Virus record (IMG/VR): IMGVR_UViG_3300035698_015386
Location: 1-56,637 of that record
Source: a virus
Direction: 5' to 3' (one strand)
Length of the DNA stretch: 56,637 bases
The stretch's first letter is position 1; each line of letters starts with the position of its first letter. Below, one piece after another: positions 4,201-46,580 of the stretch. A program made the translations under genes and the position numbers. The notes below the pieces were generated by a model, which was not told where the DNA came from, made no database searches, and saw only the letters and a list, made by a program, of their open reading frames with translations.

Positions 4201-7200
4201 ACCTGTGCGCCTACCCCTGCCATACGCCACATTGAACCCGACTTCATCTGAAGCAATTTCATCAACTTCTGTAATAACTAAGCCATGGCCTGTTTTAGTC
4301 TTGACCCAAATGTCACCATCAGAATTCAAACCTACGGCTTGACCTTTGAATATGGATTGGATGTCTTTTAGAGATAGTCCGGAATCTGATATTTTTGTGG
4401 AGTAGCTTGTCTTATTGACCGGCCTGCGATACATTTTCCCTGCGCCAAGCCTAAAATCTTTATTCCTGCCTTTATTCTCAACAAATCCGAATCGCTTATA
4501 AAATTTAACAAGCCTCCCTCTCGAGGTGGCTCCGTGATAATCGTCTTTGGCGGCAGGGGTCAGTTCAATTCGCTTTCCTACAGTGTCGGCATATTTAATA
4601 ACGTCCTCGACTATTTGTGACCCGACACCTTGCTTGCGCTGATCTTTCGGAACAATTATTGTCTGAATGTCAATGGCGTTCTTGCCTTCATATAGACCAA
4701 TGGTAACGCCTTTATTTTCCCATTTTTTACTGATGGTTTTTAAAGAGACTTTTTTAACAGAGTACTGTTCCGGCTTTCCTGGCTTATCGATCACAACCAT
4801 CTTTGAAGTAACACCTGTCTGCCTGAACGCCTTTGCGCCTTTAAAAGCTTGCCCAAGATCGCTCTGTTCTCCGCCGACCTCATCAAACCACTCTCTGAAC
4901 GCCGTTGATTTTTTGGTACTTTTAAAAAATGGAGAAGTGGACATTATCGATACAAGCCGACCACCTGGATTTAAAAGATTATATGCGTGTTTTACATGGT
5001 CAACGTCCTGCTCTTTCTCAAATGGAGGGTTTTGAAGTATTCTGTCATATTTTTTTGTATGCTCAAGGAAATCGTCACCGACAATGTTATACCCTTTTAC
5101 ATCCAATATGTTTGACAATGACGGAACGGTTTCAATAACATCAGCCTCGTATCCGGCTTGCTTTAATTCATCAGCTATGTCTCCCTTCCCGGCTGAAGGT
5201 TCAAGGACCGTCATGCCTTCTTCTAAATCGGCAAGATCAATCATTTGCTCAATGGCGGCCTTTGGTGTCGGGAAAAAGCCCGGTATTTGAGAGAACCTTA
5301 CTCTTTCTTCCAGTTTGGTTATGTTTTTAAGGCGCTCTCTTTCTTCTTTTGCCTCAAGCTGATCGCCTGTTAATGCTTTTTCAATAAGGCCCTGTAATGC
5401 CTTGCCCTCTTTAGATGTATTTGAATAATCATTGGACGGAATCACATCATAATATCCGCCGATGGACTCAAGACCTTTACGAACAAGAGGTTCTATATCT
5501 TTTTTTGATTTAACGTCTCTGAGAACGCCGGGAAGCGTACCGGATTCAAGATGGTCAGCGATTGCATTTAAAGCCTGCTGAGTTCTTTCTAAATTATCAG
5601 CATCGTGAAGCCTGCTATAATATTCCTTCATCCTTTTTGGAGTTGGGTTCTGTGTCATTTCTCCGCGCTTGTCGTCAATTTGTTTTTGAAGATTTGTGGC
5701 AAGCGTTTTAAATCGTTCGGCTTTTTTTAAGTCTTTGGGATCGATTTTTGAAGGTTGTTTTTGCGCTTTCTTTGCAACTACTGGCCTTGTTTCAACCTTC
5801 TCCACTTTCGGCTGTTTGGATTGGTCCTGATAATCTTTAATGATTGAATCAAGGTCGGCACCTTCGGGAAGGTCTTTTATATATTTATCATAGGTTTGGA
5901 AATCGTTTTCAAGCTCCATCGCCATTGTTTCGGGCGAACCGTCAAAGAAGTCAGAGCTTTTATCATAAGAGGCCTTATTGTTATTATAGAAGAATTCAAG
6001 CATCTGCTTAACTTTATCAGGTGGCATGATGCTTTTAGAAACAGGCTCTTTGGCTGCGGCTTTTTTGGGCAAGTCCTCTTTCAACACCTGAACCGTATCG
6101 TTAGGGCTCAGAGTTATGGTCACGCCGTCTTGAAGTATTACCTCAAAAGGATCGCTCTCCAAAACAGTGTACGTGTCCCATCCATCGGTGCTTTTGTTTT
6201 CAATAAGCGTTAATTCTTTTCCCTCTGGCAAGTCCTCCGCTTTCATCGTAATATACTGGCCTTCTGGCGGAGAATCGGGCTCATGCTCCATGCCCTCTTT
6301 GAGCTGTTTCTCCTTGTCGGTCAGTTCCTTCTCTGGTTTTGTGGTAACATCTTCGCTTAGTGGTCCTCGTTTCAAGAACGCAGCATCGTTCAAGAGTTCA
6401 AGAAGAGTTTCGTTTTCCGTCAACCACCCCTCTTCCTTGAGAGATTTTTCAACCGAATCAAGAGGCGTTCCTGTTTTCTTGGAAAGGAATTTAACGGCGG
6501 CCGGCATGTTTTTCAGTTCGCCTTTGAAGTTGCCGAAATTGATACCGCCCATTTCTTTTATTCTGCCCCGGATAGTGCGAACACCCTGCGAAGATTTGGG
6601 CTTGGCTGGTTTTTGTTTCCGCTTGTTTGTTTCTTTTATTGCTTCGTCTAAGGCGGTTCTTAAATTTGCAGCCATCCACATATCTTTAGGCCAAACACCT
6701 GAAGACGCTTGAGACGCAGCCCCTTTAAAATAACCGCCCTTTATTAACCTGTCCATATTGGAACCGGTATCGTTAGTGTATCGCTCAAAGTCTCTTAATG
6801 TTACAAAGTCTTTTTGTAATTTAGCATCAGATAGCTTTGAAAAATCTTCGGCAATTAATCGTTTCGCTTTCTCAAAGGTGAAATAGCCTTCTGTAAAACC
6901 AACCTTCTCCTTCAACCTCGCCTTAATCTTCAAAACCTGGCCTGCAGGTCTGTCCGGTTCGCCCTCAATCAGATCACCGGCTTTGGTTTTTTCTTCATCG
7001 GAAAGTGTTGAAACATATTCATTGTATTCTTGGACAGCTTTCTGCTTTTTGGTGGGTTTTTCCTGAATTTCCTCGGTCGCGCCCAGGGTCTTTTCGGGCT
7101 TCTGGACAATAGAAACCATTTTATCATATTCGGCCTCTGCCTGTTCGTATGTGGGATATGTCTTAATTGTAACCAATTCACCCGAATCAGCATCAACAAC

Positions 7201-9450
7201 CCGAACTACACCGCGCTTATCTTTCAACTTGTTGGCATTATACAGTTCGTAATCAACGCCATCCACACGTTCTGTTTTTGCCACTATCGCATCTATGCCT
7301 GAAATACGTTGGGCATCGCCTATCTTTTTTGGCTTTTCTGGCTGAACATCGCCCTTCTCATTCGCCTCAGAATCGACGTTCTCCTGGTCCGGAATAGTAT
7401 CCTCTGCCTGTTTCGCCCATGGTAAATCACTCACAGGCTTAGTTTTCCGCTTTCCGTCATACGCCCACCTCTTAAACTCATCCATGGACATTTCAGTTAT
7501 TCCGCCGCCGCCTTTCCAGCCTTCTTCATAATTACTCTGATAAAATGCAGCCGCTTCTTTCTCGGACTCCATTCCAATCAAGATTTTATGTTCATCCAGT
7601 TTTCCGGTTTCCGGATCAACCTGATCAACTATGAAGACTTTCGGGCTTGATTCGGTTCCGGGCTTTATGAATACGTCAAGATGGTCCTTGTCTTTTCCTT
7701 TAGCGATACCCTCTCCAACTATATAACCATAATGCGCTGTCAGGTCAGACTCCCATTCTTTACCGTCCTCTGACTTGCCTTTTCGTGTAGATCCCTGCGG
7801 ATTTTCAATAGAGATTTTCAGACCGTCTATTTCGACATGTCCTTTTTTATAGTTTCCATAAGAAATTTGTTTTTCTGACGGCTCTGGAATTTCATTCGTC
7901 GGTGAAGTAGCCGCCTCGTTTGCCTTGATATCGGTTTCCGTTTCCTCAATACCCATCTGTGAAACATTCGACATGTCCAGGGCAGCTTCTTGAGGTTCTC
8001 CCATTTCAAGTGCAGGCTGATAAACGTCCTCTTGAGGCAATGCCCTTAAATCAGGCACACCGTCAGGAGTTGTAAATATAGCCTCTTTTCTCGCAGCCTC
8101 TTCCTGCAATGCAGACTGTCTGTCCATTTCGAGAGCGTTCTGGGTGTTTATGTCAGCTTCCCATTCCTGCCCGACACGTTCCTCTTCCTGCATGTTCAAT
8201 GCAGACTGTTCTTGGGCATCCATAGATTCCAGAAGGTCAGAATTCCTATCGGCAAGACCGGTCGCGGTATCTAAAAGATTTATGGCTTGCTGGTTCTCTT
8301 TTTGTAAATCTGTCGGGCCTGGTCCCATAGCTTGCGATGTAGGAGCCGTTTCCCCTTCCGGAGTTGTCTGTTGCGCTGGTTGTTCCGTTTGCTCATTTAA
8401 TAAATCCGATGGTTTGTCTTTGGTTATTGCCGGTTTATGTGCTACTCCGCCAAGGCCAAGGCCCATGACCGCACCGGACACGCCACCCTCTGCCATAGCC
8501 TCATCGACATCTTGCATAGGGTCAACATTCGGGTCCGCGAATCTCTGAGTATCCACATTTGATCTGTATTTTTCATATCCACTCTGAGGCATTTCCTGCA
8601 ATGCTTCGTGTCGCGCCTGCCTGAAAGCCGTCCCTGTAAAGGACTTTCCGCCCTCCTTGATTACAGTTCCAAGAGCCGCCCCGGAAGGAGCGCCCAGCAC
8701 TCCGGTTGAAGCCCCGACCGCCATACCTGTCTTTAATGCTGCGTCCGAAGCTACCTGTTTTCTTGCAAGGTCAACGCTTGCGGTTTCCTGATATGCGGCC
8801 TGAAACTCGGGAGACTGAGATAAATAATCAATCGGAGCGCCCATAACAGTATCATAAGCCTGTTTTGACGCCTCAGCGCCCGCGACTCCACCTTCACCGA
8901 TAGCCCCACCGATAACACCGGCAAGGGGGCCGGAAACCCCCAATTTTATAAGACTTTGGGTAATTCCGAATCCAGTACCCATCCCCAGTGCAGTTTGGCC
9001 GGCAGACTCTAAAACGGTTCCGGCGATCTTTGCCGGGCTTGTCCATGCTGGCCCCATGTGGGTTGCGCCACTCGGATCTTTCTCAAGAAAGCGTTTCTCC
9101 TGTGCGACCTTGTATCCACCAGATTGAGCCTCCCTGCTTTCGGCTTCTCTTTCCTTATAAAGGTTCTCGATGGATTGTCCGGTTTCCTTGAAGCCGATTG
9201 CACTGACCCCCCGGCCTAAAAGTTGCCCTGTTCTATCCAGTCCGGTCGCAACTGCTCTCGGGAAATCGCTCGCACGTACCGGGTCTGCTTGGGCGATATC
9301 CTCATCTATCCCGACTTGCTGGGTAAATTCCTCATAAGAAACAACATTGTGTAGTTCCGGGTTTGACTGATAAATTTTTGAAGCCAGTTCGTGAGAATCC
9401 ATCCCGGCCATTGTAGGGTTTTGCTGTCTGAATTCTGCGAGTGTGAACAT
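1285..9450 (-). CDS. giant polyvalent protein (methylase, GNAT, zinc peptidase-like and LPD38-like domains)
   Basis: This 2,721-residue protein matches the phage and plasmid polyvalent proteins thought to enter the host with the DNA and protect it. In order I see: a Gln- and Glu-rich N-terminal region; an inorganic-pyrophosphatase-like domain near residues 530-680 (KGHVEIDGLKISIENP); an N6-adenine methylase near 1400-1540 with motif I EPSAGKGD at about 1417 and NPPF at about 1474; a GNAT acetyltransferase near 1565-1670 (RKQGVGSQI); an HExxH zinc-peptidase motif HESTH at about 1785; and a long C-terminal region resembling LPD38 (about 1950-2560). The start is backed by GAGGT upstream. It closes the leftward structural operon, after the ejection proteins. 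Domain names are from motif reading, so borders are rough. Confidence 0.85.
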   Translation of the reverse strand: MFTLAEFRQQNPTMAGMDSHELASKIYQSNPELHNVVSYEEFTQQVGIDEDIAQADPVRASDFPRAVATGLDRTGQLLGRGVSAIGFKETGQSIENLYKEREAESREAQSGGYKVAQEKRFLEKDPSGATHMGPAWTSPAKIAGTVLESAGQTALGMGTGFGITQSLIKLGVSGPLAGVIGGAIGEGGVAGAEASKQAYDTVMGAPIDYLSQSPEFQAAYQETASVDLARKQVASDAALKTGMAVGASTGVLGAPSGAALGTVIKEGGKSFTGTAFRQARHEALQEMPQSGYEKYRSNVDTQRFADPNVDPMQDVDEAMAEGGVSGAVMGLGLGGVAHKPAITKDKPSDLLNEQTEQPAQQTTPEGETAPTSQAMGPGPTDLQKENQQAINLLDTATGLADRNSDLLESMDAQEQSALNMQEEERVGQEWEADINTQNALEMDRQSALQEEAARKEAIFTTPDGVPDLRALPQEDVYQPALEMGEPQEAALDMSNVSQMGIEETETDIKANEAATSPTNEIPEPSEKQISYGNYKKGHVEIDGLKISIENPQGSTRKGKSEDGKEWESDLTAHYGYIVGEGIAKGKDKDHLDVFIKPGTESSPKVFIVDQVDPETGKLDEHKILIGMESEKEAAAFYQSNYEEGWKGGGGITEMSMDEFKRWAYDGKRKTKPVSDLPWAKQAEDTIPDQENVDSEANEKGDVQPEKPKKIGDAQRISGIDAIVAKTERVDGVDYELYNANKLKDKRGVVRVVDADSGELVTIKTYPTYEQAEAEYDKMVSIVQKPEKTLGATEEIQEKPTKKQKAVQEYNEYVSTLSDEEKTKAGDLIEGEPDRPAGQVLKIKARLKEKVGFTEGYFTFEKAKRLIAEDFSKLSDAKLQKDFVTLRDFERYTNDTGSNMDRLIKGGYFKGAASQASSGVWPKDMWMAANLRTALDEAIKETNKRKQKPAKPKSSQGVRTIRGRIKEMGGINFGNFKGELKNMPAAVKFLSKKTGTPLDSVEKSLKEEGWLTENETLLELLNDAAFLKRGPLSEDVTTKPEKELTDKEKQLKEGMEHEPDSPPEGQYITMKAEDLPEGKELTLIENKSTDGWDTYTVLESDPFEVILQDGVTITLSPNDTVQVLKEDLPKKAAAKEPVSKSIMPPDKVKQMLEFFYNNNKASYDKSSDFFDGSPETMAMELENDFQTYDKYIKDLPEGADLDSIIKDYQDQSKQPKVEKVETRPVVAKKAQKQPSKIDPKDLKKAERFKTLATNLQKQIDDKRGEMTQNPTPKRMKEYYSRLHDADNLERTQQALNAIADHLESGTLPGVLRDVKSKKDIEPLVRKGLESIGGYYDVIPSNDYSNTSKEGKALQGLIEKALTGDQLEAKEERERLKNITKLEERVRFSQIPGFFPTPKAAIEQMIDLADLEEGMTVLEPSAGKGDIADELKQAGYEADVIETVPSLSNILDVKGYNIVGDDFLEHTKKYDRILQNPPFEKEQDVDHVKHAYNLLNPGGRLVSIMSTSPFFKSTKKSTAFREWFDEVGGEQSDLGQAFKGAKAFRQTGVTSKMVVIDKPGKPEQYSVKKVSLKTISKKWENKGVTIGLYEGKNAIDIQTIIVPKDQRKQGVGSQIVEDVIKYADTVGKRIELTPAAKDDYHGATSRGRLVKFYKRFGFVENKGRNKDFRLGAGKMYRRPVNKTSYSTKISDSGLSLKDIQSIFKGQAVGLNSDGDIWVKTKTGHGLVITEVDEIASDEVGFNVAYGRGRRTGEKIVGSYQGFEFESGEHKGIIKIVKGIGDKFTLAHESTHFVESAGLLNSLELNVLKNAYDKKHGPSKLGDKEKRATFIQEELENRENHRNTPAGRVLQKIADFIDSLVNLFKRTSRGITRDVESGKVYEREGEPAGEGGELYSVKKPDIIDQKFGKSVKSFATKVSDAVDTIKTKEKRDELKDKIITKGLDRLRPIKTMIGEIPYKLHRMETGFMMPFQMFLENGKLKWKDGLLNVDTKDEGVLPFLRSLGKDWEKLLYWTAAKRAEILEGQGRERWLDEDARKQIFEWAGDPNDAKMLKASEKLQEFNSNIMDIAVDAGLVDPMARKEWMSDFYVPFYRIFESEESREEFLSGPRMSKKHISAQIKKLKGADQKIGDLTENYLHNWMHLIHESIRNQARSSAFDTSQEIGNEVIEEVEYKEGVSKYITNKMRQADNVLTFRRDGKPVYFKVHDPDLFQALSNVNVNRMDNILVNFMGKTKRWLSYGATFGPGFKIRNALRDTLHTSIVAKNFKPFYDSFNGFIKSMREDTDYIEFASSGASFGGSYVNDDPEAGARYIKKILRSEGPKNIILNTPKKMLDFWEKIGSASENAARIMLYKNKLDAGESNLDAAFEARDIMDFSMRGGSGAVQFLTQTTPFLNARMQGLYRMGRGFKEDKRAFMLKGSMLTVASLALWSLFKDDDRYKELENWEKFTYYHFWIGDEHYRIPKPFETGVLFSTLPEAFSNVMNGTEDGQHIIEFAGHAFRDVFAIDMPQAVKPIAEQWANKSFFTGRPIVGMGLQNLPAGQQADPWTSETMQVLGDTMGISPKRAESLVRGYFSTLGMFLLGSTDVITHYLWEFPDNPESTIDDVIGVGSFVRRAEPVRNIKQMTWFYDTHEEINKLVRGIKHYQQTGDHLKAVELAKDNVNKLKVRKAFSAVRKELTTINKGIKFVYRSGLSPEKKREKLDGLTRKRNSLVKRIYELTAGKI

Positions 9451-12467: not shown

Positions 12468-12997
12468 TAGAACACCCCTCTTTCAGCGCAAAACATTACG
12501 CCTTTAATATGCTGACCGTCTTTTTTGAAACGCTTTGGAATAATAGCCAGTTCTTCCAGTCCGGTTTTTTTGCAAAACTGAATTGCGAATTTATTGTCTT
12601 CGGGAACTATCCCGGTTATGACAGAAAATTGACCCGCCAAAAGCCGTTTATAAACTTCTCTTGTGGCAAATATGGAGGCCTCGTGATTCCAATATTCAGA
12701 GAAAACACAAAAATGTCCCTGTCCAGTATCGTCCCGAATATCATCCACCAGACCAAATCCGGCAATGTCGCCCTTGTAAAGAATGGTAAAAAACATCAGT
12801 CTTGATTCATACTTAACCCTTGAGAGAAAGACCTTCTTGTCTGGATTCGTATCCCCGAAAAAAAACATGTCCATCGTGCCGTCCCTTTCCGACCTGTCCA
12901 ACAAGCCAATAATAAAGCTATCGGTCATGTTTCTTACGCCATCGTCTTCATTATAAACGTCCATATAGACATCTTCTGTCTTAAATTCCGTACTCAT
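12467..12997 (-). CDS. GNAT-like acyltransferase in the virion gene block
   Basis: The 176-residue protein has the look of a GNAT fold. A strand-rich centre (LMFFTILYKGDIAGFGLVDDI) is followed by a helix and the C-terminal pattern DNKFAIQFCKKTGLEEL, which matches the usual Asn-x-Ala-x-x-Phe-x-x-Lys-x-Gly ending of GNAT enzymes. Short-tailed phages such as T7 have a GNAT-like protein (gp13) at the matching place beside the internal core genes. The pyrophosphate loop is not obvious, so catalytic activity is uncertain and an assembly role is possible. Confidence 0.6.
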   Translation of the reverse strand: MSTEFKTEDVYMDVYNEDDGVRNMTDSFIIGLLDRSERDGTMDMFFFGDTNPDKKVFLSRVKYESRLMFFTILYKGDIAGFGLVDDIRDDTGQGHFCVFSEYWNHEASIFATREVYKRLLAGQFSVITGIVPEDNKFAIQFCKKTGLEELAIIPKRFKKDGQHIKGVMFCAERGVF

Positions 12998-13238
12998 AAG
13001 GATTCACCTGATTAAAGTTTCCGTCAGAATCGATCACTCCCAAATCAATCAAATCCTGATATGTGATCACCCTGTTGTTTGTGCTCCCGGTCCAAACATC
13101 GATGGTCTTCTTTACCTTGGAACAAAAAAGATATAACGCTTTCGGCTGGAGGTTTCCCGGGACATCCGGTAATTTCGTTGCCGCATATCCGGCTGTTGCA
13201 ATCGCAATTATTATCAATGTAATAAGCAGTTTCTTCAT
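12981..13238 (-). CDS. small exported protein
   Basis: This 85-residue protein opens MKKLLITLIIIAIATAGYA, a textbook Sec signal with an AxA-type cleavage site after residue 19, leaving a mature part of about 66 residues with one Cys. It overlaps the start of the GNAT-like gene by 17 bases and the end of the hub gene by 4, so it is part of the tail block. The function is unknown. It is one of eleven genes here with this kind of N-terminus. Confidence 0.65.
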   Translation of the reverse strand: MKKLLITLIIIAIATAGYAATKLPDVPGNLQPKALYLFCSKVKKTIDVWTGSTNNRVITYQDLIDLGVIDSDGNFNQVNPYEYGI

Positions 13239-15259
13239 TGTCCGAGTTCCCTCATTGATGTAGCAAGGTCAACCTGTCGGATAGGAACATACCCGGAAAT
13301 ACCGATTTCATATACTCGGCCTTTATATCCTGCAGGCAGCTTAAAAGGATCGGAAGAGGTCACAGTCCTTGTCACTTTCGGGGTAGAATTCCCGTTCACG
13401 TAAAGATAAAACGTGACGGTATCGTTTAGTGTCGTAGACTCAAGGTCATATAGATAGTCATCGTTGATAGCCAGTTCGTTTATAGCAGCACAACCTATAC
13501 AGCCGTACAGTGTATGGTTGGATATCATGTCAGCGTTTAGTGTGGCTAAATACGCACTGTCGGCCATGCCCGAGATTAAATCATCATACCAATACTCATC
13601 CCTTGTAACTCTCGCGCATGAGAAATTTACCAGGGAGTTCAACTGAAACTTTTTCGACTTCCAGATATACCGCTTGAAATTATACGTCTCCCCTTCCCAT
13701 TCTTTTATTTTGTAAACATACGAAGATGTCGGGTCCTCGGGGTCTTCAAGTTCGTTCGCGATAACGTAGAACTTTCCATCGGCTATCGAAACATATCCAG
13801 CATAAACCGTGTCTTTCAGGGTTGAATAAGTGCTTAGTTCAAGGTCTAATACAAAGCTGGTTCCGGAAGAGGAAGAATTAAAGGCAAAGTATTTACTCGC
13901 ATAAACAAACCCCTGAATGTACGTCGGTAAAATATCAATCCAGTCGTCTCGGGTTAAGATATTTGATGTTAATGTCCTGATTCCGTCCTGGTCTATAATT
14001 TTCAAGCCGTCTCTTTTAGAGGCGAAGATAACCGCGTTTTGCACCCTTGCGATTGACTTCTTGGCAGCGCAGGGACAGAAATCGTTCAACTGGATAAACG
14101 TCATTGTCTCCGGATCGTCGCCATACCCGACCGAATGATAACCCTCTGTTAAAACAACGACTGTTGAACCGAAAAAGGAAATCCCAACAATGTCATGTTC
14201 AAAGGAGATTGTATCAGATCCCCATGCGTGAGGCAGGAAAGGTTCGGAAAAATAAAGTTCGTTCCCCTTGAACCCCATCATTCTTCCGGAAGGAAGTACC
14301 TGTAAATGAGTTAGTCCGGCAACCGGAGGCCCCCAGTCGGAAGAAGGACACACAGAACCGGTATCAAGGTCTGCCGTGTCGATGTTGTCTAAGAGAGTGT
14401 AATATTCCCAGTAATCAGTTCCGGACCCGCCTACGCCATTTGTGGCATCGTCCGGGTCACAGCTTGTACTATCATGAACGCATTTATAGATTATATCATC
14501 AGAGCCGTCGTCAAACTGCCAGTATTCGCCATCATCGCCGCTTGAAACTCCGGTTGCCCAGTCTCCCTCGATTGTAGGAAGAGTATAGTCTTTGACAAAT
14601 ACAAACTCTGCCGTATCTTCTGAGCCTGCGACGGTCCTATATACTCGTAATGTTTCAATTTCCCTGTCCGCAGGAATGGCCTCGATTTTTGTAATGTCAA
14701 CCGTGTCGTCGGCCAGAAAAGCACTTCCCGGCAAATCAGTTATCGGGCAAGGAGGACCTTCCTCACCGTAAGCCGTCACTCGGCAATAAGCATAGATTCT
14801 TTCTTCTTCATTTGAAGATCCGCCGGTATTGACAGCAACCTCGGGCTTGAGTGTAGGTGCAGGAACACCAACCTTGTAATATGCCGGATATACCAAATCG
14901 TTCGCGTATGCCCGAACTTCTGTCTCTCCTGAAAAATACGTTCTCGCATAAGCGTCTTGAGCAATAGGTGATATGGCATAGTCCAGATCGTCAGCGTCCG
15001 TGATATAATCACCGTCATACTCAAAAAGAGATTCAAAATCGCTCCCTGAAAGAACCTCCGTCTCAGAAGTATCCCGAAAGGACCGTAAGTCTCCCCTTTC
15101 GAGCTTGCAGTTTTCAGCCGTCTTCGCCTGGGTGACATCTAAAAGGTTATCAGCAAGGCGAGGATTTTCACCCTCAAATGCCTTTATGGATATGCTTCCG
15201 GCAAAAGACTGGGAGGCTACAAAAAGCGTAAGAAATAGTATGTATAAGAGTTTTTTCAT
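13235..15259 (-). CDS. tail hub or stabilisation protein (beta-propeller-like) with signal peptide
   Basis: The 674-residue product has repeated beta-strand segments such as LPSGRMMGFKGNELYFSEP and VQNAVIFASKRDGLKIID, the pattern of propeller proteins that build short tails (compare P22 gp10-type stabilisation proteins). It lies after the adaptor and fibre genes, as expected for a hub. Its N-terminus MKKLLYILFLTLFVASQSFA is a clean signal peptide, which is odd for a protein assembled in the cytoplasm. A CPC motif and other cysteines near residues 390-395 and 610-620 would suit disulphides outside the cytoplasm. Tail role is inferred from position and build. Confidence 0.65.
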   Translation of the reverse strand: MKKLLYILFLTLFVASQSFAGSISIKAFEGENPRLADNLLDVTQAKTAENCKLERGDLRSFRDTSETEVLSGSDFESLFEYDGDYITDADDLDYAISPIAQDAYARTYFSGETEVRAYANDLVYPAYYKVGVPAPTLKPEVAVNTGGSSNEEERIYAYCRVTAYGEEGPPCPITDLPGSAFLADDTVDITKIEAIPADREIETLRVYRTVAGSEDTAEFVFVKDYTLPTIEGDWATGVSSGDDGEYWQFDDGSDDIIYKCVHDSTSCDPDDATNGVGGSGTDYWEYYTLLDNIDTADLDTGSVCPSSDWGPPVAGLTHLQVLPSGRMMGFKGNELYFSEPFLPHAWGSDTISFEHDIVGISFFGSTVVVLTEGYHSVGYGDDPETMTFIQLNDFCPCAAKKSIARVQNAVIFASKRDGLKIIDQDGIRTLTSNILTRDDWIDILPTYIQGFVYASKYFAFNSSSSGTSFVLDLELSTYSTLKDTVYAGYVSIADGKFYVIANELEDPEDPTSSYVYKIKEWEGETYNFKRYIWKSKKFQLNSLVNFSCARVTRDEYWYDDLISGMADSAYLATLNADMISNHTLYGCIGCAAINELAINDDYLYDLESTTLNDTVTFYLYVNGNSTPKVTRTVTSSDPFKLPAGYKGRVYEIGISGYVPIRQVDLATSMRELGQ

Positions 15260-15265
15260 AAGTTC

Positions 15266-16279
15266 CTAATGAAGCATTGTCACACACATAAAAGATGCGG
15301 ACACGCCAGATTGTACCGAATCGTCATTGTCGTCATTTAAGACCTCTGTGGCGATTACGTCTGCCGCAGTTAGGTATTCCGTGGTAGACTGGCTTATGGT
15401 CTGGTTTCCGGTTCCAACCGCATCCTTTCCCTTGGTCGCCACACTGGTTCCGTTCACCTTGATTCTGAGCGAAAGCCTGTCACCATCAGCGGTCACTCCA
15501 AACTTAGCCTGTGCGATTATAAGATAAAGACCTGTTGTGGGCACCGTAAAATTATCAGAGGCTTGGCTTCCGTGGCTTCCAATATTATGAGAATTCGCGC
15601 CGAAATCCATGTCCTCAACAACGCCATCCGCAATAGCCTGTCCCGAACTGACATACAGTTTACAGCTCGGCTGAACCGCAAGCGTCATATGGCCGTCATC
15701 ATCAACTAAAAGCCCTTTGGTTCCGCCGTCGTCATAAATCTTAACACCGGCAGCACCGGCAGCATTGATTTGGGCTACTGTCGGAGTGGTAAGCGCAGGA
15801 CTCGCGAATGTTCCGGTTGTGACTACGGGAGCCGTTATGGTCTTATTGGTAAGCGTCTGAGTGCCGTCAATCGTTACGATATCCCCGGCATCCGTACCCG
15901 CGACCTTTTCAAGATCCGCCTCAAACCTGTCCAATGTTTCTGCGGTCAATCGACATGCAACGATAGTGGTCGGAGAGGCCGTACAAGACAAACCGGTTGT
16001 TCCCTCCTGGGCTCTCAAGACCGTCAAGGTAGTTCCCGACCGGGTAGTGACCTTAATAATCTCCATGTCACCGTCGGCCTGAATCAGCGTTGCCATAAAC
16101 CAGTCCGTACCGTTCGCAGTGGGCCAGCCGGTAGCATCGTCAATCGTTACGGTAGTCGCAATATTGGTAATATCCCCAGCAAGATCAGCAACCGCCTCGT
16201 TTGCATACTGCTGTTCGGCTGCGAACCCGTAAGACGCCAGGAGTATTAAGGAAAATAAGGTTAAAAATAGCTTTTTCAT
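15266..16279 (-). CDS. tail fibre or appendage protein with C1q/TNF-like C-terminal domain and signal peptide
   Basis: The 337-residue protein carries the repeated fibre motif DGTQTLTNKTITAP near residue 137. Its C-terminus (about residues 225-335: NFTVPTTGLYLIIAQAKF, then LRIKVNGTS) looks like the C1q/TNF-type trimeric domain found at the tips of phage fibres. The first 20 residues, MKKLFLTLFSLILLASYGFA, form a signal peptide. It sits between the adaptor gene and the hub gene. Receptor or surface binding is likely. Confidence 0.65.
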   Translation of the reverse strand: MKKLFLTLFSLILLASYGFAAEQQYANEAVADLAGDITNIATTVTIDDATGWPTANGTDWFMATLIQADGDMEIIKVTTRSGTTLTVLRAQEGTTGLSCTASPTTIVACRLTAETLDRFEADLEKVAGTDAGDIVTIDGTQTLTNKTITAPVVTTGTFASPALTTPTVAQINAAGAAGVKIYDDGGTKGLLVDDDGHMTLAVQPSCKLYVSSGQAIADGVVEDMDFGANSHNIGSHGSQASDNFTVPTTGLYLIIAQAKFGVTADGDRLSLRIKVNGTSVATKGKDAVGTGNQTISQSTTEYLTAADVIATEVLNDDNDDSVQSGVSASFMCVTMLH

Positions 16280-18205: not shown

Positions 18206-18730
18206 CTACTCTCGCATATCGAACAGGAGCACCGTCACAGTAACCTTACCACTGCTCAACGTCCCTGTAAGTTCAGCGATTTCCATATCCAATGTTGTAG
18301 CTGTTGTTACGTACCCCTGAACAGCGAAGATGGGAACGCCGTCTGTGGTACATGTTACGGCATTATACCCATCGACAAAGTTGTCAGGGTCAGCTTCCGG
18401 ATGCGATGTCCACCCAAGGTCCAGCTTACACACGGTCGCACCTGAATTAATCGCGGTATGAGCGTGAATATTGGCAGCAATAACCGCTGTTTGCGGTGGG
18501 ATATCAAATACACTTATGATATCGTTTGCGGCCAATGCGGACCCTTTTTCGGTAAGAGCCGTCGCAAAGTTAATGGTTCTTGTAAGCCGTCTTGCCCCGA
18601 CGCCCCATGCATCGGACACGGTAGTCCCTGCGGTGTTTGAACCGGAAGGGGTCATTACGATAGTGCTTGCAAAACCAATAGACGTAAATGCAAACACAAG
18701 AAAAATCAGTATAGCTATGGTCTTTTTCAT
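18206..18730 (-). CDS. putative capsid decoration protein with signal peptide
   Basis: The 174-residue protein follows the coat gene directly, the usual place of a decoration or head-stabilising protein, and its mature part is beta-rich (DIIVSVFDIPP-like and VTVTVLLFDMRE strands). It begins MKKTIAILIFLVFAFTSIGFA, a signal peptide with cleavage expected after residue 21. A decoration protein with a Sec signal is unexpected. The alternative is an exported host-surface protein that happens to sit here. Confidence 0.6.
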   Translation of the reverse strand: MKKTIAILIFLVFAFTSIGFASTIVMTPSGSNTAGTTVSDAWGVGARRLTRTINFATALTEKGSALAANDIISVFDIPPQTAVIAANIHAHTAINSGATVCKLDLGWTSHPEADPDNFVDGYNAVTCTTDGVPIFAVQGYVTTATTLDMEIAELTGTLSSGKVTVTVLLFDMRE

Positions 18731-18742
18731 GGCTGCACCTCC

Positions 18743-20562
18743 TTACGCCTTATAGACGTAGCCGACTACAAGAGCCTGCTCTTTAATGGTTTTGTAGTCA
18801 TGGACATTCAAACCCCTTATCAGCTGACCGAAAGTTCTCTCGGATTTCAGAGAGTCCATTTCGTTCATTTGAGCCGCAAACGTAATCGCGGCCTTGTTGC
18901 CGGCCATCGGGTAGTAACAGGTGTTGTCACCGTCAGTTACCTTATGGATCTGGTTGGATTTGAGTATCGGGTTATTGTCGATGTTGCCGATTCTGCCGTG
19001 TCGAATGGGCGACTTGCTGTCACCTGTCATGGAAACGTCCTTAATCTCAGACTTCTTGATCAGGTTAGCCATCCATGAAGGAATCGCATACCACCGACTC
19101 GTTTCGGGAACGTTCTGTTCGTCCAGCACACTGGTCATGTCGGACATGAAATCAAGAACATTGTCCTTTGTGACCGCATACGGTGTGCCGGAAACGCCCA
19201 TGTTGTAACTTGAAGAATCCAAACCGGCTGTCAGTCCAACATTGCTGGCGTGACCATCGGCATAAACCGTAGCAAGCCCCTCAGAGTCAATCTTGACTTT
19301 CATCTGTTGCCCTGCGTCCTGGGACCATTCACTCATAAGCTGAACGTCGGCCTGGTGAGCATCGATGTCGTCGCAAATGAAATTGAAGTACTTGGCTCTC
19401 TCAATCGGAAATTCGACGAGAGGATTGTCCGGATGCTGAATGTCAAGAGTCTGCCCTTTCTCGTAATCGAGTATATTGATATCGGGCCGGGTACGAATCT
19501 TGACCACATCGCCCTGGTTTTTTATCTCCGTTGTGTTTACGTCCGGGGCTCTTTATCCCCAGCTCCTACGTGTTTCCACGCAGACCAGACTATATCTTCG
19601 GTTTGTTCGGGCCTCTGCCCTTTTTTCCGGTGTGGTGCAGTTTCACATGATGCCCAACGAGCATCAGTTCTAAATTTTCAATGCGGTTGTCTGCCTTATC
19701 GCCGTTTACATGATGAACACACTCACCATTTTCCAAGTATCTGCCGAGATACTTTTCCATAACAAGGCGATGCTCTCTAACGTACCCCTTGCTGTCAGCG
19801 AGAGGATGTCCGGCAACCTGAACCAAAACATAGCCTGAATCGGTCTTTATAAATCCCTTGTGGAATTTAGACCGTTCAATCTCAATCCCATATCGCTTCG
19901 CCTGTTGGCGAATATGTATGGGCGTGAAATTCAGCTTTTTGGCTATTTCTGAGGCGGTCATTCCCCTTTTTGCCAAACGTCTAATTTTGGCGGCAACGTC
20001 CTTCGGATTGTTGCGCTGATTTCTTTCTATCCCGTACTTTTTCATATAGTTAAGTATGAGTTTTTTAGAAACGCCAAACCTGCTGGCAACCCTTTCCATT
20101 GATCCCAGTTCCCTGTATGCACTCTCAAGTTCCCTGTGATCCGCATTGAATTTTTTTACAACCATGACAAACCCTTTCCTTATTGTGTTTATGCCAATTT
20201 GGATTAGGCTTATCATATCACCGTAATTATTAATTTCCAAGTCTTTTTTTAATAAAAACAAACCGCTCCGCGCTCGTGTCGCTTTACCGCCATACCCAAA
20301 ATATGGGATTAGGCTCCATGCGTTAGTCGTTGAACCTTCACTCTGTTTCCAGAGAGCTTGGCTGCTGATTGCCCTCGGCTTTACGTTAGGGTGTCCCAGC
20401 AATTCACGGAGTTTAAAGAGAGCCATATTAACCCTCGTAGTCCGTATTGCACATAGCTGGAAAAATGCTGCTATGGTAATACTTGACGAGAAGATTAGTG
20501 GTCCACACCTCCGGAATAAAATTTCCGGAATACTGTGGAACACCCGCTGATGCTGTTATCAT
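18743..20562 (-). CDS. major capsid protein, split gene: exon 1 20562-20431, exon 2 19528-18743
   Basis: Joining the two exons gives a 305-residue coat protein. Exon 1 (44 codons) starts MITASAGVPQYSG behind AAGGAGAGAAATT and ends ...NTDYEG. Exon 2 (261 codons) starts EIKNQGDVVKIRTRP and ends GYVYKA. The joined sequence reads smoothly in frame and has the look of HK97-fold coat proteins of short-tailed phages. Scaffold lies upstream and a decoration-like gene downstream. Exon 2 alone would be mis-called as a 254-aa protein starting at GTG 19507. The splice points come from the intron's P1 helix and terminal G. Confidence 0.85.
19529..20430 (-). ncRNA. group I self-splicing intron in the coat gene (902 nt)
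   Basis: The last exon bases GAGGGT pair with GCTCTC just inside the intron (loop TAATATG), giving a P1 helix with the required U-G wobble at the 5' splice site. Core elements follow: P (AATTGCTGGGA), Q (AATCAGCAGCC), R (GTTCAACGACTAA at about 20321-20336) and, after the endonuclease, S (GAAGATATAGTCT at about 19587-19599). The intron ends in G at 19529 before GAG. R and S pair as P7. The layout is close to group IA introns such as T4 td. It contains the HNH gene and would be removed from coat mRNA without proteins. Confidence 0.9.
19590..20165 (-). CDS. intron-encoded HNH homing endonuclease
   Basis: I start this 191-residue protein at the ATG at 20165 behind AAGGAAAGGG; the open frame continues further up only through intron and exon sequence. 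The N-terminal half holds two helix-turn-helix-like stretches (VASRFGVSKKLILNYM; ASEIAKKLNFTPIHIR) for target recognition. The HNH nuclease lies at the C-terminus: EHRLVMEKYLG, then HHVNGDKADNRIENLEL around residues 151-167. It would cut intronless coat genes and spread the intron. The TAG stop lies within the intron's S element, so gene and ribozyme core overlap. Confidence 0.88.
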   Translation of the reverse strand: MVVKKFNADHRELESAYRELGSMERVASRFGVSKKLILNYMKKYGIERNQRNNPKDVAAKIRRLAKRGMTASEIAKKLNFTPIHIRQQAKRYGIEIERSKFHKGFIKTDSGYVLVQVAGHPLADSKGYVREHRLVMEKYLGRYLENGECVHHVNGDKADNRIENLELMLVGHHVKLHHTGKKGRGPNKPKI

Positions 20563-20616: not shown

Positions 20617-21699
20617 TCAACCCATTATTCGCCCATCAATTCGGGCTTGCTGAATGTCCTGAAAAATTGCCTCTGCGTTTTCTCGTAGGTTCAACGGCAA
20701 ACTCCCCGTCGCATAGTCCCTTACGAACTTATCCGCCCATGCCTTTTGGTACTGCTGTCCCTGTGCCTTTGTAACTGGCTGGTTCGGAGCGCCTTGGGCT
20801 GGTGACGGAGACACATTGGTTAAATCTTTTACAGGATCGCTATTGTCAGTTTTTACAGGAACCTCTTTTTGTTTGTTGATAAAGTCCCGAAAGACCTTTT
20901 CAACCGCCGGGAGATTCATATCTTTGTGAGCCGTCTTAAAAGGGGCCATTCTGGATTGAGTCCCGCCGAGTGGAATTTCATTCAGGTACTTGACGAAATC
21001 AGGGTTCCCCGGCACATTGCGTTCCGGAACTCCGTTTAGCGCCACAAAGTCGCCAAGAGAGCCACCATCTTCCGCAATTAGCCGATTAACAGCTGCTACA
21101 AGGTTGTTCTGATAGGTGCGCTCATCATTGTTCTTGGTTGTCTGCTGCACCTCTCCTACCGTGTTTTGCACCGTACTTACCTTGCCGAGTATCTTCTGAA
21201 GACCCTGCTTAAAAGCATTGCCAAGGTCCACAAACTCGCTTCCGTACCCACTGAGGGTTTGAGGATCGAAATCCATCAAATCCTCGACGGTTTCCAGTTT
21301 CGGTTGTTCCGGTGCTGCCGGGACTGTCTCAAGCTCCTCAACCCTTTTTTGCAGAACAAAATTCTGACTGTTCAGGTATCGTTCGCTTTCTTCCAGCTCG
21401 GCTATTCTGGTTCGCAGGGGAGGCAATTCCGCTTTGTATTTGCCTTCCATTACATTAAATCTCTGCTGCCACGTCTCTTCCCCTGCTGCCAGGTTGGGTT
21501 CGGTCGGACTTCCTTCGGGAGTTGGTTCAAGAGGATTGCCGTCAGGGTCGAGAGCTTCCGTCGAAGGGTTCTCAATTCCGTCTCCTGCAGTTCCTTCACC
21601 AGTATTCGCCATGTTTTCGGCTAAATCAGCCGGTAATCCGGGCATCCTTCCTTCTTCCAAGTCTTTTTCTGCTTGCTGTAACTGTTTCGGTAATGTCAT
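20617..21699 (-). CDS. capsid scaffolding protein
   Basis: The 360-residue protein is acidic and polar, with Pro- and Glu-rich N-terminal sequence, a coiled coil near residues 90-125 (LRTRIAELEESERYLNSQN, LQKRVEELE), a helical middle, and a Gln/Pro linker before a basic-acidic C-terminus. This build and its place between portal and coat are those of scaffolding proteins, which shape the procapsid and then leave. It starts behind AAGGAGGAAAG. Confidence 0.75.
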   Translation of the reverse strand: MTLPKQLQQAEKDLEEGRMPGLPADLAENMANTGEGTAGDGIENPSTEALDPDGNPLEPTPEGSPTEPNLAAGEETWQQRFNVMEGKYKAELPPLRTRIAELEESERYLNSQNFVLQKRVEELETVPAAPEQPKLETVEDLMDFDPQTLSGYGSEFVDLGNAFKQGLQKILGKVSTVQNTVGEVQQTTKNNDERTYQNNLVAAVNRLIAEDGGSLGDFVALNGVPERNVPGNPDFVKYLNEIPLGGTQSRMAPFKTAHKDMNLPAVEKVFRDFINKQKEVPVKTDNSDPVKDLTNVSPSPAQGAPNQPVTKAQGQQYQKAWADKFVRDYATGSLPLNLRENAEAIFQDIQQARIDGRIMG

Positions 21700-23443: not shown

Positions 23444-24000
23444 TGAATCGTCCCTTTCGCCCCGGGCAAGATAACGTTCGTTCGGACCAGCCAAAACTCA
23501 GGACCTAAAACACGTTCATACTTCATTTTTTCCGGGTGGCTGATAAAGTAAGCCAGCTCCTTGTCAAGATAGATATAAAGCCCTGCTTTCCAATTCTCGT
23601 CCACCTGAGAAGTCAGATGCCTTGAAAGCCGTATCCTGTTTTCCTGATATAGCTTATTGGCTGCATCCTTCCTCGCCAGGACAGTATCTGTAAAAAAACG
23701 GTCAAAGAGAAAACCGGGTGCTCCCATTACGCCTAAATTTCTCATGACGTGGTTGATGAGTTTGTCGATGAGAAAAGAGGCTTCCCTTTTAGAAGCTAAC
23801 TCATGGTCGTGCAGTATCTTATGTGTCTGGTTCCACTGTTCTTCCTCATCCCTGACAACCTCTCCCAGCGTCCGATGATCAGTAATATTATCAAGCTCCT
23901 GCGTGTAAGCCTTTTCACCGCCCACCTCAACGACATTCTCTTCGTCGTGTGACTTTTCGCCTATCTCATTCAACACTTCCTTAATTGAAGGTTCTGGCAT
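23440..24000 (-). CDS. hypothetical protein downstream of portal
   Basis: This 186-residue protein is acidic at its N-terminus and helical in the middle (LASKREASFLIDKLINHVM). It overlaps the portal gene's end by 20 bases and the next gene's start by 4. Small proteins in this place can be portal or maturation accessory factors, but no family is recognised. Confidence 0.55.
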   Translation of the reverse strand: MPEPSIKEVLNEIGEKSHDEENVVEVGGEKAYTQELDNITDHRTLGEVVRDEEEQWNQTHKILHDHELASKREASFLIDKLINHVMRNLGVMGAPGFLFDRFFTDTVLARKDAANKLYQENRIRLSRHLTSQVDENWKAGLYIYLDKELAYFISHPEKMKYERVLGPEFWLVRTNVILPGAKGTIH

Positions 24001-25996
24001 CTGCGCCTCCCTGTTTTCCTCCCGCCTGGTTTGTTTCGGTCCCCTTGGTCACTTGTGGCTGACCAGCGACCGGCTGCATCTGCGAAATTAAAGTTTGTAA
24101 TAAAACATCCTCTTTAGACGGTACAATGTCTGCGGTAGAACTATCGAGCCCTCTAAAGAACTGCCTCAAAAATTCTGAAAGGCCTTCTCTGCCGATTATC
24201 TCAAGTATGGCCGGATGGAGAAGGACCTGCAATGCCTCCTGTCGTCTCACTTGAGCCTGTTCTTTCTGAATCAGGCTTCTTGAGCCAATGGCCTGTAGAT
24301 TAACATCACCCATTCTTAGAATCGGATCAGGATCGTACAGCAATAAATGGGTGTGGGTTGCCTTAATCGACTTGGATATAACCTTCGTGTCAATGTTCCG
24401 AACAGACTTCTTTACGCCCCTGGAGGCGTTTGACATCATCATTGAAAACTGTGTCGCATTGTTAATCGATGCCCCACCCTGTCCGTAAGTATATTTCGGA
24501 ATTCCAGACTTATTGTCCGCCTCTTCTGAAAACTTATCCCAAACCGCTATCAGGTCTGTCACCATCGACTTCGGCTGGAAAAACCACATGGGAGCGCGTG
24601 TGCCGTTCTGGATATCCTTCATTTGAAACTGCCATATCTTGTTCGGTTCCAGCGTCGTTATCTTTTCCCCTGGAGGCATGGCATCTGTGTCTACTCCGAT
24701 TTGAACGCCACTGGCCATACCGATGTTGTTCACAACATTCCTTGCGGCTGCATTACACATTCTTGAACAGTCTTCGATAGTGTCCGGTAATCCATCGCCC
24801 CAAAACTGGCCTTTCTTTTCCCTGAAAGAAACTTTATAATACGGTACCTCCCCGAGAGGGTTTCCGTTCAGTTCGCATTTAATGACATAGTTTCCTATCA
24901 GCCATATTTCAGCATCATAAGAGGTAAACAGATCCGGAAGCCTGTCCGGAGACACGCCATGTTCCACCAGGGACAAACCTTGAATCTTTCCCCACAACTG
25001 CAAGGCATCGATAGTTCCTTCCGGATCCTCTTCGACATTTTTTCTGTACGAAAGTGTGTCCAGGGTGTTTTGATTTGTCTCATAAATCCACTTCCTTAAA
25101 CCGCCCGAACCGTATTCTTGCAAAACAAGCTCAATGGCTGCGTCGTCATATCCTTTCACGCCTCTCAGGGCCTCGATATCTCGAACTCGTAATGTGTGTT
25201 TTTCTATCAGTCCGTCATTAACCGTCCTTGACGCAGGGAAAGGATAAATATCAAACGGGCTTGGAGCTTCCCATGCCATTGATAGCTTTGTCGTCGGTAC
25301 CGGCTCCCCTTGCTGATCCCAGTCCATGACTTTCTTTTGCCTTACGAGCGGGCCTTTTAAAAAGCCTGCCTTGTAATCCACAAAGTCAGATATGAAGTCG
25401 TCAAGTGCGTCTTTCCATCCGGATTCTGCTATAACATCTTTGATTTTGGTTTCAACAGCGGCCTCAACCTCGTTGGCCTTTTCCTGCATTTTCTTCTGAA
25501 TGTGTGCGGATACCATCTTGATTCGCTGGTCTATGTCGGCAGGGGTCACGCCAGCCGCCCCCATCTGAATTGCCATTTCTGTCTCTGCCCTGACTTCTTC
25601 AGCGATCATTTGCGTTTGCTGTGGAGGAAGTGTCGGGACAGGGCTCTTTTGCGCAGAGAAGGGGTCTTCTTCGCCTATAAGAAGGTCGGTAAACCATGCT
25701 TTCGCTGCCTCGGACTTTTCATCATCCAGCCTCATAAAAATAGAAGATCCGCCCTGGGCTTCTATCTTTTGCAAAACATCGGGTTCATAGTCGCCCTTAA
25801 TCCTGCGTTTCACTTTCAGCATTGCGGTTTCAACGTCATTCTTGGCCTTCTTCGCAGACTCCCAACACCGTTGAACGTAACTTGCCAGAGAAGTTATTAC
25901 CTCGTTGGCCTGCCGTTGCTGGGCCTGTGCGGTTCTTTCCTGGTTTTCCGCCTCCGCTATTTGGTCGTTGCTTTGAAATCCTGTTTCAAGTTGCAT
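23981..25996 (-). CDS. portal protein
   Basis: I take the ATG at 25996, behind GCGAGGC, giving 671 residues; an upstream ATG at 26035 lacks a ribosome site. The sequence matches the portal type of short-tailed phages: long N-terminal helices, then VPYYKVSFREKKGQFWGDG with the following helix of ARNVVNNIG, and a Gln-rich C-terminus (QMQPVAGQPQVTKG). The portal forms the dodecameric ring through which DNA enters and leaves. The lysis genes lie upstream and scaffold and coat downstream. Confidence 0.85.
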   Translation of the reverse strand: MQLETGFQSNDQIAEAENQERTAQAQQRQANEVITSLASYVQRCWESAKKAKNDVETAMLKVKRRIKGDYEPDVLQKIEAQGGSSIFMRLDDEKSEAAKAWFTDLLIGEEDPFSAQKSPVPTLPPQQTQMIAEEVRAETEMAIQMGAAGVTPADIDQRIKMVSAHIQKKMQEKANEVEAAVETKIKDVIAESGWKDALDDFISDFVDYKAGFLKGPLVRQKKVMDWDQQGEPVPTTKLSMAWEAPSPFDIYPFPASRTVNDGLIEKHTLRVRDIEALRGVKGYDDAAIELVLQEYGSGGLRKWIYETNQNTLDTLSYRKNVEEDPEGTIDALQLWGKIQGLSLVEHGVSPDRLPDLFTSYDAEIWLIGNYVIKCELNGNPLGEVPYYKVSFREKKGQFWGDGLPDTIEDCSRMCNAAARNVVNNIGMASGVQIGVDTDAMPPGEKITTLEPNKIWQFQMKDIQNGTRAPMWFFQPKSMVTDLIAVWDKFSEEADNKSGIPKYTYGQGGASINNATQFSMMMSNASRGVKKSVRNIDTKVISKSIKATHTHLLLYDPDPILRMGDVNLQAIGSRSLIQKEQAQVRRQEALQVLLHPAILEIIGREGLSEFLRQFFRGLDSSTADIVPSKEDVLLQTLISQMQPVAGQPQVTKGTETNQAGGKQGGADARTFN

Positions 25997-26084
25997 TTTC
26001 GCCTCGCTTTTTCTGTATCCAGAGAAAGAACACAACGATCATTCCCAATAAAACCAGACCGATCTTTTTAAGTTTTTGGGTCAT
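25986..26084 (-). CDS. 32-aa single-span membrane protein
   Basis: MTQKLKKIGLVLLGMIVVFF begins a single hydrophobic helix with basic ends. The ATG overlaps the end of the endolysin-like gene in another frame, and the stop overlaps the portal start. The ribosome site is weak. Its place beside endolysin and holin-like genes suggests a lysis role, but this is uncertain. Confidence 0.45.
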   Translation of the reverse strand: MTQKLKKIGLVLLGMIVVFFLWIQKKRGENAT

Positions 26085-26764: not shown

Positions 26765-27090
26765 TTACTCCGAAGTAGCATGGATGCCTGTCTGGTCCGG
26801 TATGCACTTTCCCGGCAAAATCACAGGGTCGCTATGCCCCCCTTCACCAGAAATAGGCATGACAGCCGTAACCGTTAAAGAAATATCATTGTCCATTGAC
26901 GGTAGGTTTTCTATCTCGGATATTTCAATCGCGTAAACATTCCCCGGTACGCTCTGGCAAAGAACTCCATCAGCGTAAATGTTGTACGATGTCGCAGCAC
27001 AATTATTTCCCCAATAAAATTCTTCCGCACTTACAGATGTTACCATTGCCAAGCTTACCAAAACTGCCAATATGATCAGTAATCGTTTCA

Positions 27091-27091
<1 letters not shown>
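26765..27091 (-). CDS. small exported protein, fibronectin-III-like
   Basis: This 108-residue protein begins MKRLLIILAVLVSLAMVTSVSA, a signal peptide. The mature part has the strand pattern of a single Ig-like or fibronectin-III fold (SYNIYADGVLCQSVPG, ISLTVTAVM) with three cysteines. It overlaps the end of the poly-Asp adhesin gene. A surface or tail-associated role is likely. Confidence 0.6.
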
Positions 27092-28542
<1,451 letters not shown>

Positions 28543-31717: not shown

Positions 31718-32425
31718 TTAAGCTCCGCCATCAGTAAATGTTCCATAGATTGTCTGTGCCTGCCAATCATAGGCGCCTGCACCTGTTTGGAAAGTAAAAA
31801 ACATAATCATGTCACCAACGGCACTCGACCCTGCGTTATTACTTACCTTATCTGCATCATCTAAAGCCGTACCGTCAAAGTATATTTTATCACCAGCACC
31901 AGCTTTAATATGCCATGTCTGCGCTGCTGCGCCATGTACGGCTAAGAATTTCAACCCCTTGGTTGCCGCTGGAAGGGTAGTTGTTGTTGGTGCAGCCATG
32001 CCGTAGTTGTTAAGCAATGTCCCTTTGCATTCTGCGGCTGTTAATGTATCTGTTGAAGTTGTTACTACTTCTTGAAAAGCAACTGACCAAAAACCTGTGA
32101 CCACTTCGTTGTCTCCAAGGCTTGCTTTGCCCTCAAACTCGTCCCTGATAGCTCCTTTGGTTGCTCCATGTGCGCTGAGGTTCCACGTAGATTCATCGTA
32201 GGCCGTGTCATCAACTATATATGTCATTACTTGCAAAACTGTTGAATACTCACTGGTTCCATCAGCCCCATCAGTTGTGTTGGAAATATTTTGAAGCATC
32301 AATATATCAGCCCCATCAGGAGACGAATTGTTAGAGTACGTTGTTTGCCAACCGTCAGCAGCGTAGGCGAATGTTGCCATCAATAAAACATAGGTGATTA
32401 TAATAAACCTGTCTAACTTTTTCAT
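31718..32425 (-). CDS. exported fibre-like protein
   Basis: The 235-residue protein begins with a signal peptide (MKKLDRFIIITYVLLMATFAYA) and continues with Thr-, Gly- and Asp-rich beta sequence (PTTTTLPAATKGLKFLAVHG), as in phage fibre tips and structural appendages. It lies between the large adhesin and the next small exported protein. No specific family is recognised. Confidence 0.55.
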   Translation of the reverse strand: MKKLDRFIIITYVLLMATFAYAADGWQTTYSNNSSPDGADILMLQNISNTTDGADGTSEYSTVLQVMTYIVDDTAYDESTWNLSAHGATKGAIRDEFEGKASLGDNEVVTGFWSVAFQEVVTTSTDTLTAAECKGTLLNNYGMAAPTTTTLPAATKGLKFLAVHGAAAQTWHIKAGAGDKIYFDGTALDDADKVSNNAGSSAVGDMIMFFTFQTGAGAYDWQAQTIYGTFTDGGA

Positions 32426-32823: not shown

Positions 32824-33204
32824 TTAATAATCACACTTTCCGTCCGACTGAATATAGCCAACGTCAATATGAGCGCCGGCAACGGTTGATGTATAAAAAA
32901 GATTGCCCTCGAACCATCTAAAGTTTTCAAACGGCCTGCCGGTTGATTCAGGGTTGGCCGAACCTTTTGCGGTCCACCTTCCGACCTCTCTTCCGGCTGC
33001 GGATGCCTCGAAAAGAATAACCGTCACATCGCTTGCTGTCGGAGTGACCTGTAATGAGGTGGCATACCCAGAGCCGGTATATAATGTTCCGGACGTTGAC
33101 CCTGTAGCCGAAGCTGAACACCCTCGGTCCCTGCCTGCAAAAGAAGGTGCGGCCATCAGTAAAATTATCAGTATGATTGTCAGTACAAGTTCAAATCGTT
33201 TCAT
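32824..33204 (-). CDS. exported protein in the adhesin block
   Basis: The 126-residue product has a signal peptide (MKRFELVLTIILIILLMAAP then SFAG) and a mature part with Ser/Thr/Gly-rich beta sequence, two cysteines near the ends (GCSAS and KCDY) that could form a disulphide. Its start overlaps the upstream stop. It may be a small fibre or head-fibre protein. Confidence 0.55.
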   Translation of the reverse strand: MKRFELVLTIILIILLMAAPSFAGRDRGCSASATGSTSGTLYTGSGYATSLQVTPTASDVTVILFEASAAGREVGRWTAKGSANPESTGRPFENFRWFEGNLFYTSTVAGAHIDVGYIQSDGKCDY

Positions 33205-33441: not shown

Positions 33442-34074
33442 CTATGCCCAGTGATGACCGGCGGCAACAACCTCTCTTCTGCCACCGACCGCCCGAACCG
33501 TATCGTCAGTTAAAAACCCGCCCACAATCTGCCTTACGGCATGAAACCCAGGCGGCAACGTCTCTTCTGTTGTCTTGGTTAAATGATCACTTAAAATAGT
33601 ATCTTTTGGTATTTCAAGGCTTTCGTCTGCAAGCCATTCTCTCGTAAGAATCTTTCCATATGCCTCATCATCATCAAACGGCAAGTGAGACGGAGAGTGA
33701 AGTGTCGGAACTCGTTTTTTAAGCCCGAACAAGAACCCTGTTTCCTTTTGATCACAGTAAACTATCCGACATTTTAGCCTGATCGCGTCATCGGAAAACT
33801 TCTCAAGGAGCTCGGCATATCCTTTCTGCTCACCTTCTATTAAAAACAATAACGGATTTTTATTAACCTTGTTTCGCTCCCTTTTCTCGGCCATGAATAA
33901 ATAATAACCTGGCACAGAGGGAGTCGGGAAGATAACGGATGCTCTCACGCCATTAACGGGAATGGACAATGTTTTGGGTTCGGATGGTGTCCGTTTATAA
34001 TACACAAAATAGCCGCCCTCTCCCATGCCTGAGTCTCCAACGTGTGATACTTCTTGTTTTAGTTCTTCGTTCAT
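33442..34074 (-). CDS. hypothetical protein next to large terminase
   Basis: This 210-residue protein overlaps the end of the large terminase by 4 bases. It has a Pro-rich centre and a C-terminus rich in Gly, His and Arg (GGRREVVAAGHHWA). I cannot name the family. Its position suggests a packaging or virion-associated role. Confidence 0.5.
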   Translation of the reverse strand: MNEELKQEVSHVGDSGMGEGGYFVYYKRTPSEPKTLSIPVNGVRASVIFPTPSVPGYYLFMAEKRERNKVNKNPLLFLIEGEQKGYAELLEKFSDDAIRLKCRIVYCDQKETGFLFGLKKRVPTLHSPSHLPFDDDEAYGKILTREWLADESLEIPKDTILSDHLTKTTEETLPPGFHAVRQIVGGFLTDDTVRAVGGRREVVAAGHHWA

Positions 34075-46517: not shown

Positions 46518-46580
46518 GCATCTATCGTAGCATTTTAATTTCGACTTACTTTCAACGCTATGTAAGCAATGGAGGCTGAA

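Follow-up and report, generated by a model that had tools for sequence, protein, structure and literature searches.

Group I introns that interrupt major capsid protein (MCP) genes have been described in several phages. In the mycobacteriophage LittleE, splicing of the capsid intron was demonstrated by RT-PCR together with N-terminal protein sequence (PMC3706429). As at the locus discussed here, the probable group I intron of LittleE lies in the N-terminal part of the MCP gene. Its endonuclease-like ORF is on the opposite strand, as in two of the related introns presented below (L046 and L051); however, this ORF is LAGLIDADG-like rather than HNH, and both the MCP family and the site are different (PMC3706429). 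In crAss-like phages of the Delta and Zeta groups, group I introns with endonuclease ORFs are likewise found in MCP genes, and excerpts of the published account present introns as typical of the MCP and other core genes in the Delta group (PMC7886860). These phages belong to another order, the MCP genes of the Zeta group carry several introns each, and the same excerpts describe no single-site series (PMC7886860). The original prediction for the present locus held that introns of this kind are rare in major capsid genes. This view has to be revised given the cases on record for Tuc2009, LittleE (PMC3706429) and crAss-like phages (PMC7886860), and the four further same-site introns reported here.

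The Lactococcus phage Tuc2009 (NC_002703) offers another close parallel, since an annotated group I intron with an HNH ORF in the sense orientation splits its major head protein gene mp4 after about 55 codons. The core of the mp4 intron is 93% identical over 43 nt to the core of the intron described here, but Tuc2009 is an unrelated phage and its gene is cut after GNTLKFPAWS, not at the codon-44 site. When the whole intron was searched as DNA against named phages, the matches were limited to the conserved core. To our knowledge, no series of introns at the same site is known for the Tuc2009 mp4 position.

The locus lies in a linear virus contig of 56,637 bases, the whole of which was analysed and is referred to as the window. 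Its MCP gene and the elements inside it are arranged as follows.

20431..20562, minus strand: MCP exon 1, 132 nt, codons 1-44, ending in GAGGGT; aligns to intronless MCPs
19529..20430, minus strand: group I intron, 902 nt, first base T and last base G, identified by its match to RF00028 and by covariation in five same-site introns
18743..19528, minus strand: MCP exon 2, 786 nt including the stop, codons 45-305
20418..20436, minus strand: P1 helix, in which exon GAGGGT (20436-20431) pairs with the guide GCTCTC (20423-20418), with U.G at the splice site
19590..20165, minus strand (sense strand of the intron): homing endonuclease ORF with HTH and HNH_3, 191 aa, in the P8 loop, start at 20165

Joining the two exons with a translation script gives an MCP of 305 aa that is split after codon 44 (GAGGGT|GAG); the predicted exon and intron coordinates, including the intron length of 902 nt, proved right to the base. 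If the transcript is read unspliced, the exon-1 frame meets a stop at the first intron codon and many more further on, which rules out an intein. In a 21-sequence alignment, the joined MCP and 20 uninterrupted relatives (51-76% identity) show zero gaps across residues 44/45, and Y42, G44, I46, G50 and D51 are invariant near the junction. This places the intron within a region of the MCP that is among its most conserved. Exon 1 ends in U (GAGGGT|) and the intron in the predicted terminal G (ACAACG|GAGATA). The junction is unambiguous, because a shift by one base would destroy either this G or the U before the cut, and because a pair of relatives with and without the intron (L085 and L066, see below) gives the same codon boundary. 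A different junction is ruled out by the gap-free alignment together with this pair. The anatomy of the intron and its exact junction are, in other words, directly established.

The split protein is an HK97-fold major capsid protein. The joined sequence matches PHROG_267, major head protein (6.4e-45), and tblastn finds annotated phage MCPs, the best being those of Rhizobium phages with 42% identity. Moreover, a profile of the MCP relatives matches the solved Che8 MCP structure 8e16 (3e-33), and the L001 protein, the nearest relative lacking an interruption (76% identity), has the same fold in an AlphaFold2 model with a mean pLDDT of 75 (Foldseek 8.5e-13). In the L001 model, the first 30 residues of which are poorly modelled, codon 44 is placed just ahead of the first strand (residues 52-56). 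The neighbouring genes are those expected for an MCP, with a terminase (34071-35687), a portal-like gene (23981-26035; Pfam SU10_portal) and an internal virion protein (13235-15259) in the window. Immediately beside the MCP gene are two ORFs with roles suggested by position.

20617..21699, minus strand: upstream ORF, 360 aa, PHROG_13678 of unknown function, in scaffold-gene position and a putative scaffold on that basis
18206..18730, minus strand: downstream ORF, 174 aa, in head-decoration position and a putative decoration protein on that basis, with a signal-peptide-like N-terminus and a similar neighbour in L001

The 174-aa ORF has no PHROG match. Eight ORFs of the late block, all on the minus strand, have Sec-type signal-peptide-like starts (MKKLL...), which is unusual for virion proteins (12981-13238, 13235-15259, 15266-16279, 18206-18730, 26765-27091, 27091-28542, 31718-32425 and 32824-33204). 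One of these matches PHROG_511, "internal virion protein", one directly follows the MCP gene, and the ORF at 27091-28542 carries a stretch of about 15 aspartates close to its C-terminus. In the intronless L001, the gene that follows the MCP (1579-2109, plus strand) likewise has a signal-peptide-like start. Elsewhere in the window, an ORF at 46569-47378 (plus strand) contains about 15 short repeats of the RDQV/GDQV/WDQV type in a run, and a methyltransferase-like NPPF motif is apparent by eye in an ORF of 2721 aa (1285-9450, minus strand).

RF00028 is the only Rfam family above cut-off in the whole window. The match spans 20440-19566 (minus strand) and scores 66.3 bits against a curated cut-off of 50 (E 1.2e-14 over the whole window and all Rfam families). 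The core blocks named in the original prediction were all found, i.e., P (AAUUGCUGG), Q (AAUCAGCAGCC), R (AGGUUCAACGACUA) and S (AAGAUAUAGUC), as was P1 (GAGGGU/GCUCUC). Alignment of the cores of the five same-site introns, with the ORFs left out, gives a common fold of 58 pairs comprising P1, P3, P4, P5, P6, P6a, P7, P8, P9 and a further P9 hairpin. In this group I structure, 96.6% of the cells are paired in the five cores and 26 of the 58 pairs show changes on both sides; none of 500 shuffles reached as high a value and slid controls dropped to 37-48% paired. P7 (R/S) and the U.G of P1 are kept in all five introns, as are all six P1 pairs, and the P1 helix hardly varies. For the pair counts, the pairing of the first exon bases with the S block given by RNAalifold was replaced by the standard P7. 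Inspection by eye of the window and L056 for P10, i.e., pairing of the guide with exon 2, revealed no convincing continuous pairing. The RNA fold is conserved, and the presence of a group I intron in the major capsid gene is borne out by the Rfam match, the covariation, the intronless relatives and the empty-site pair. These features suggest that the 902-nt intron would be removed by guanosine-dependent self-splicing.

The 191-aa ORF within the intron was not part of the original prediction. It belongs to the HNH family, matching Pfam HNH_3 over cut-off (2.5e-11) and PHROG_7545 (8.5e-26), with HTH_50 just under cut-off, and AGGAAAGGG just upstream of it is likely a Shine-Dalgarno sequence. The HNH ORFs of the window, L046 and L051 form one family (45-49% identical) and are all located in the P8 loop, in the sense orientation in the window and in the antisense orientation in the other two. 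Judged from its sequence, the protein is predicted to cleave DNA and to act in homing. The window also contains two free-standing HNH-like ORFs, one at 52332-52679 (plus strand; Pfam HNH 3.8e-9) and one at 44508-44870 (minus strand), where HNH-like residues are seen by eye and there is no Pfam match.

To collect relatives, the MCP and its alignment were used to scan viral contigs twice and genome contigs once. The resulting 97 MCP loci were reduced to 70 sequences, window included, by dropping near-copies and short fragments. The codon-44 site is intronless in 65 of the 70 MCPs, while four alleles other than the window have, at exactly this codon boundary, group I introns that score over the Rfam cut-off.

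L046/L047: 1061 nt, RF00028 64.4 bits, antisense HNH ORF
L051: 923 nt, RF00028 58.9 bits, antisense HNH ORF
L056/L057: 258 nt, RF00028 80.3 bits, without ORF
L085: 319 nt, RF00028 72.5 bits, without ORF

Each of the five same-site introns is preceded by GAGGGT and ends in G. Mis-assembly is unlikely, because the insertion recurs in separate contigs, including the pairs L046/L047 and L056/L057. Relative to the intronless L066, L085 carries an exact insertion of 319 nt between flanks that are 98.7% and 96.5% identical; this near-identical, natural filled/empty-site pair therefore fixes the insertion point exactly. GAGGGT precedes the cut in all five intron alleles vs 9 of 65 intronless alleles (Fisher p = 1.7e-4, with related sequences treated as independent; one of 66 scored sites, a misplaced L085 segment, was left out). 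A bias of this kind would be the trace expected from a splicing constraint or from homing into matching sites. Outside the ORF, the introns of the window and the ORF-less L056 are 86% identical, compared with 69% for the DNA of the coat genes. As these introns are so alike and the ORF is present only in the window, the enzyme gene was gained or lost in a closely similar intron. Exon 2 is also somewhat more alike beside the cut in these two (81% and 78% vs 68-69%); co-conversion of the exon flanks is not claimed, since intronless relatives show a similar rise in identity at codons 45-60.

Collectively, these data make it very probable, in our view, that the coat gene is interrupted by a mobile group I intron that splices itself and is kept by homing, with an enzyme gene that comes, goes and turns independently of the ribozyme. 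The ribozyme would fold in the late transcript and take an external guanosine, and splicing would join codon 44 to codon 45, restoring the 305-aa coat protein. The HNH enzyme, either the intron's own or that of a relative, would cut intronless copies of the conserved coat-gene site, and repair of the cut copy would copy the intron in, allowing it to persist. Related introns hold the same site in other viruses of the group, where the enzyme gene is absent or reversed; it is from these introns without an enzyme gene, or with a reversed one, that its independent coming, going or turning follows.

The homing part of this model, though not the intron itself, has a rival that we regard as possible but doubtful. 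The intron could be old in the MCP lineage and vertically inherited, its scatter being mostly due to loss and the HNH ORF being a remnant or inactive. The trees of introns and MCPs agree at the deepest split ({window, L056} vs the rest); the inner arrangement differs (89/92 and 87/83 support), the only conflict being the grouping of L046 with L085 (89/92). Since the intron relationships thus largely follow those of the MCPs, old vertical inheritance with many losses fits almost as well as repeated homing, and the absence of the intron from L001, the closest neighbour of the window in the MCP tree, is in keeping with it. Against it, the introns of the window and L056 are more alike than their exons, many precise losses would be needed to empty the site in so large a share of the MCPs, and L066 and L085, which have flanks about 97% identical but of which only L085 has the intron, indicate that it was gained or lost very recently.

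Each particle requires hundreds of copies of the coat protein, so an intron in its gene has to be spliced efficiently if it is not to be a heavy burden on the phage. The original prediction went further, proposing that splicing efficiency sets the coat supply. This is logical if the transcript must be spliced, but there is no support for splicing that is limiting or regulated. We consider it improbable that the intron is retained because it acts as a switch on the timing or amount of coat protein made, even though it is placed in the most demanded late gene and L056 and L085 retain introns without an ORF at this position: no regulatory feature was found, most relatives (65 of 70) do without the intron, and splicing of the capsid intron in LittleE is presumed to be highly efficient (PMC3706429). 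Least probable of all is a degenerate ribozyme that no longer splices, in a phage that is either defective or left with a truncated piece of its coat protein, as the core is intact with U.G, terminal G and 66.3 bits, covariation extends across the relatives, and the 261 codons of exon 2 have stayed open and conserved, a state that would be lost over time if the intron were not spliced out.

The relatives also revealed a second insertion site in the same gene. L019, L041 and L077/L078 carry insertions of 599-662 nt after MCP codon 17, with U before and G at the end.

L019, 2353-3000, plus strand: codon-17 insertion with LAGLIDADG-like ORF
L041, 2339-3000, plus strand: codon-17 insertion with LAGLIDADG-like ORF
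L077, 2402-3000, plus strand: codon-17 insertion with LAGLIDADG-like ORF

LAGLIDADG_1 is matched in L041 (4.2e-7) and just under cut-off in L019 (1.9e-4), and the ORF of L077 is LAGLIDADG-like by eye. An Rfam search gave no match for the insertions in L019 and L041, even at E 1, and none for L077. P7-like R/S blocks are present in all three (GACUA/UAGUC in L019 and L041, GACUG/CAGUC in L077), and by their sequence these insertions probably belong to another group I lineage, distinct from that at codon 44, which targets this MCP gene as well. A wider reading, which we hold with as much doubt as confidence, is that codon 44 may have served as a homing site over a long time, with one ribozyme lineage repeatedly gaining, losing or inverting an HNH gene in its P8 loop, while a LAGLIDADG group I system attacks codon 17, so that coat genes would be the shared target of two homing systems.

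A single codon boundary is hence seen empty, with the ribozyme only, with a sense HNH gene and with an antisense HNH gene, and one near-identical pair differs by the intron. Such a one-site series allows the entry and exit of homing enzymes in introns, as well as the cost of a coat-gene intron, to be tested. In practice, it also means that gene callers can miss or truncate coat genes in metagenomic viruses.

Similar arrangements are on record outside coat genes. According to the citing text, the introns of the HMU phages are similar group I introns with divergent ORFs in related phages, as in the series here, but they lie in the DNA polymerase gene (Goodrich-Blair and Shub 1994, referenced in PMC10580990). 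Group I introns at the rDNA site L2066 likewise combine sense and antisense endonuclease genes at one site, although, in the excerpts of that account, the site is in eukaryotic nuclear rDNA and the enzymes are of the His-Cys type (PMC9548176). Given that MCP group I introns were already known, the novelty of the present locus is modest; what it adds is a natural series at one site in a coat gene, with the enzyme gene in either orientation or absent.
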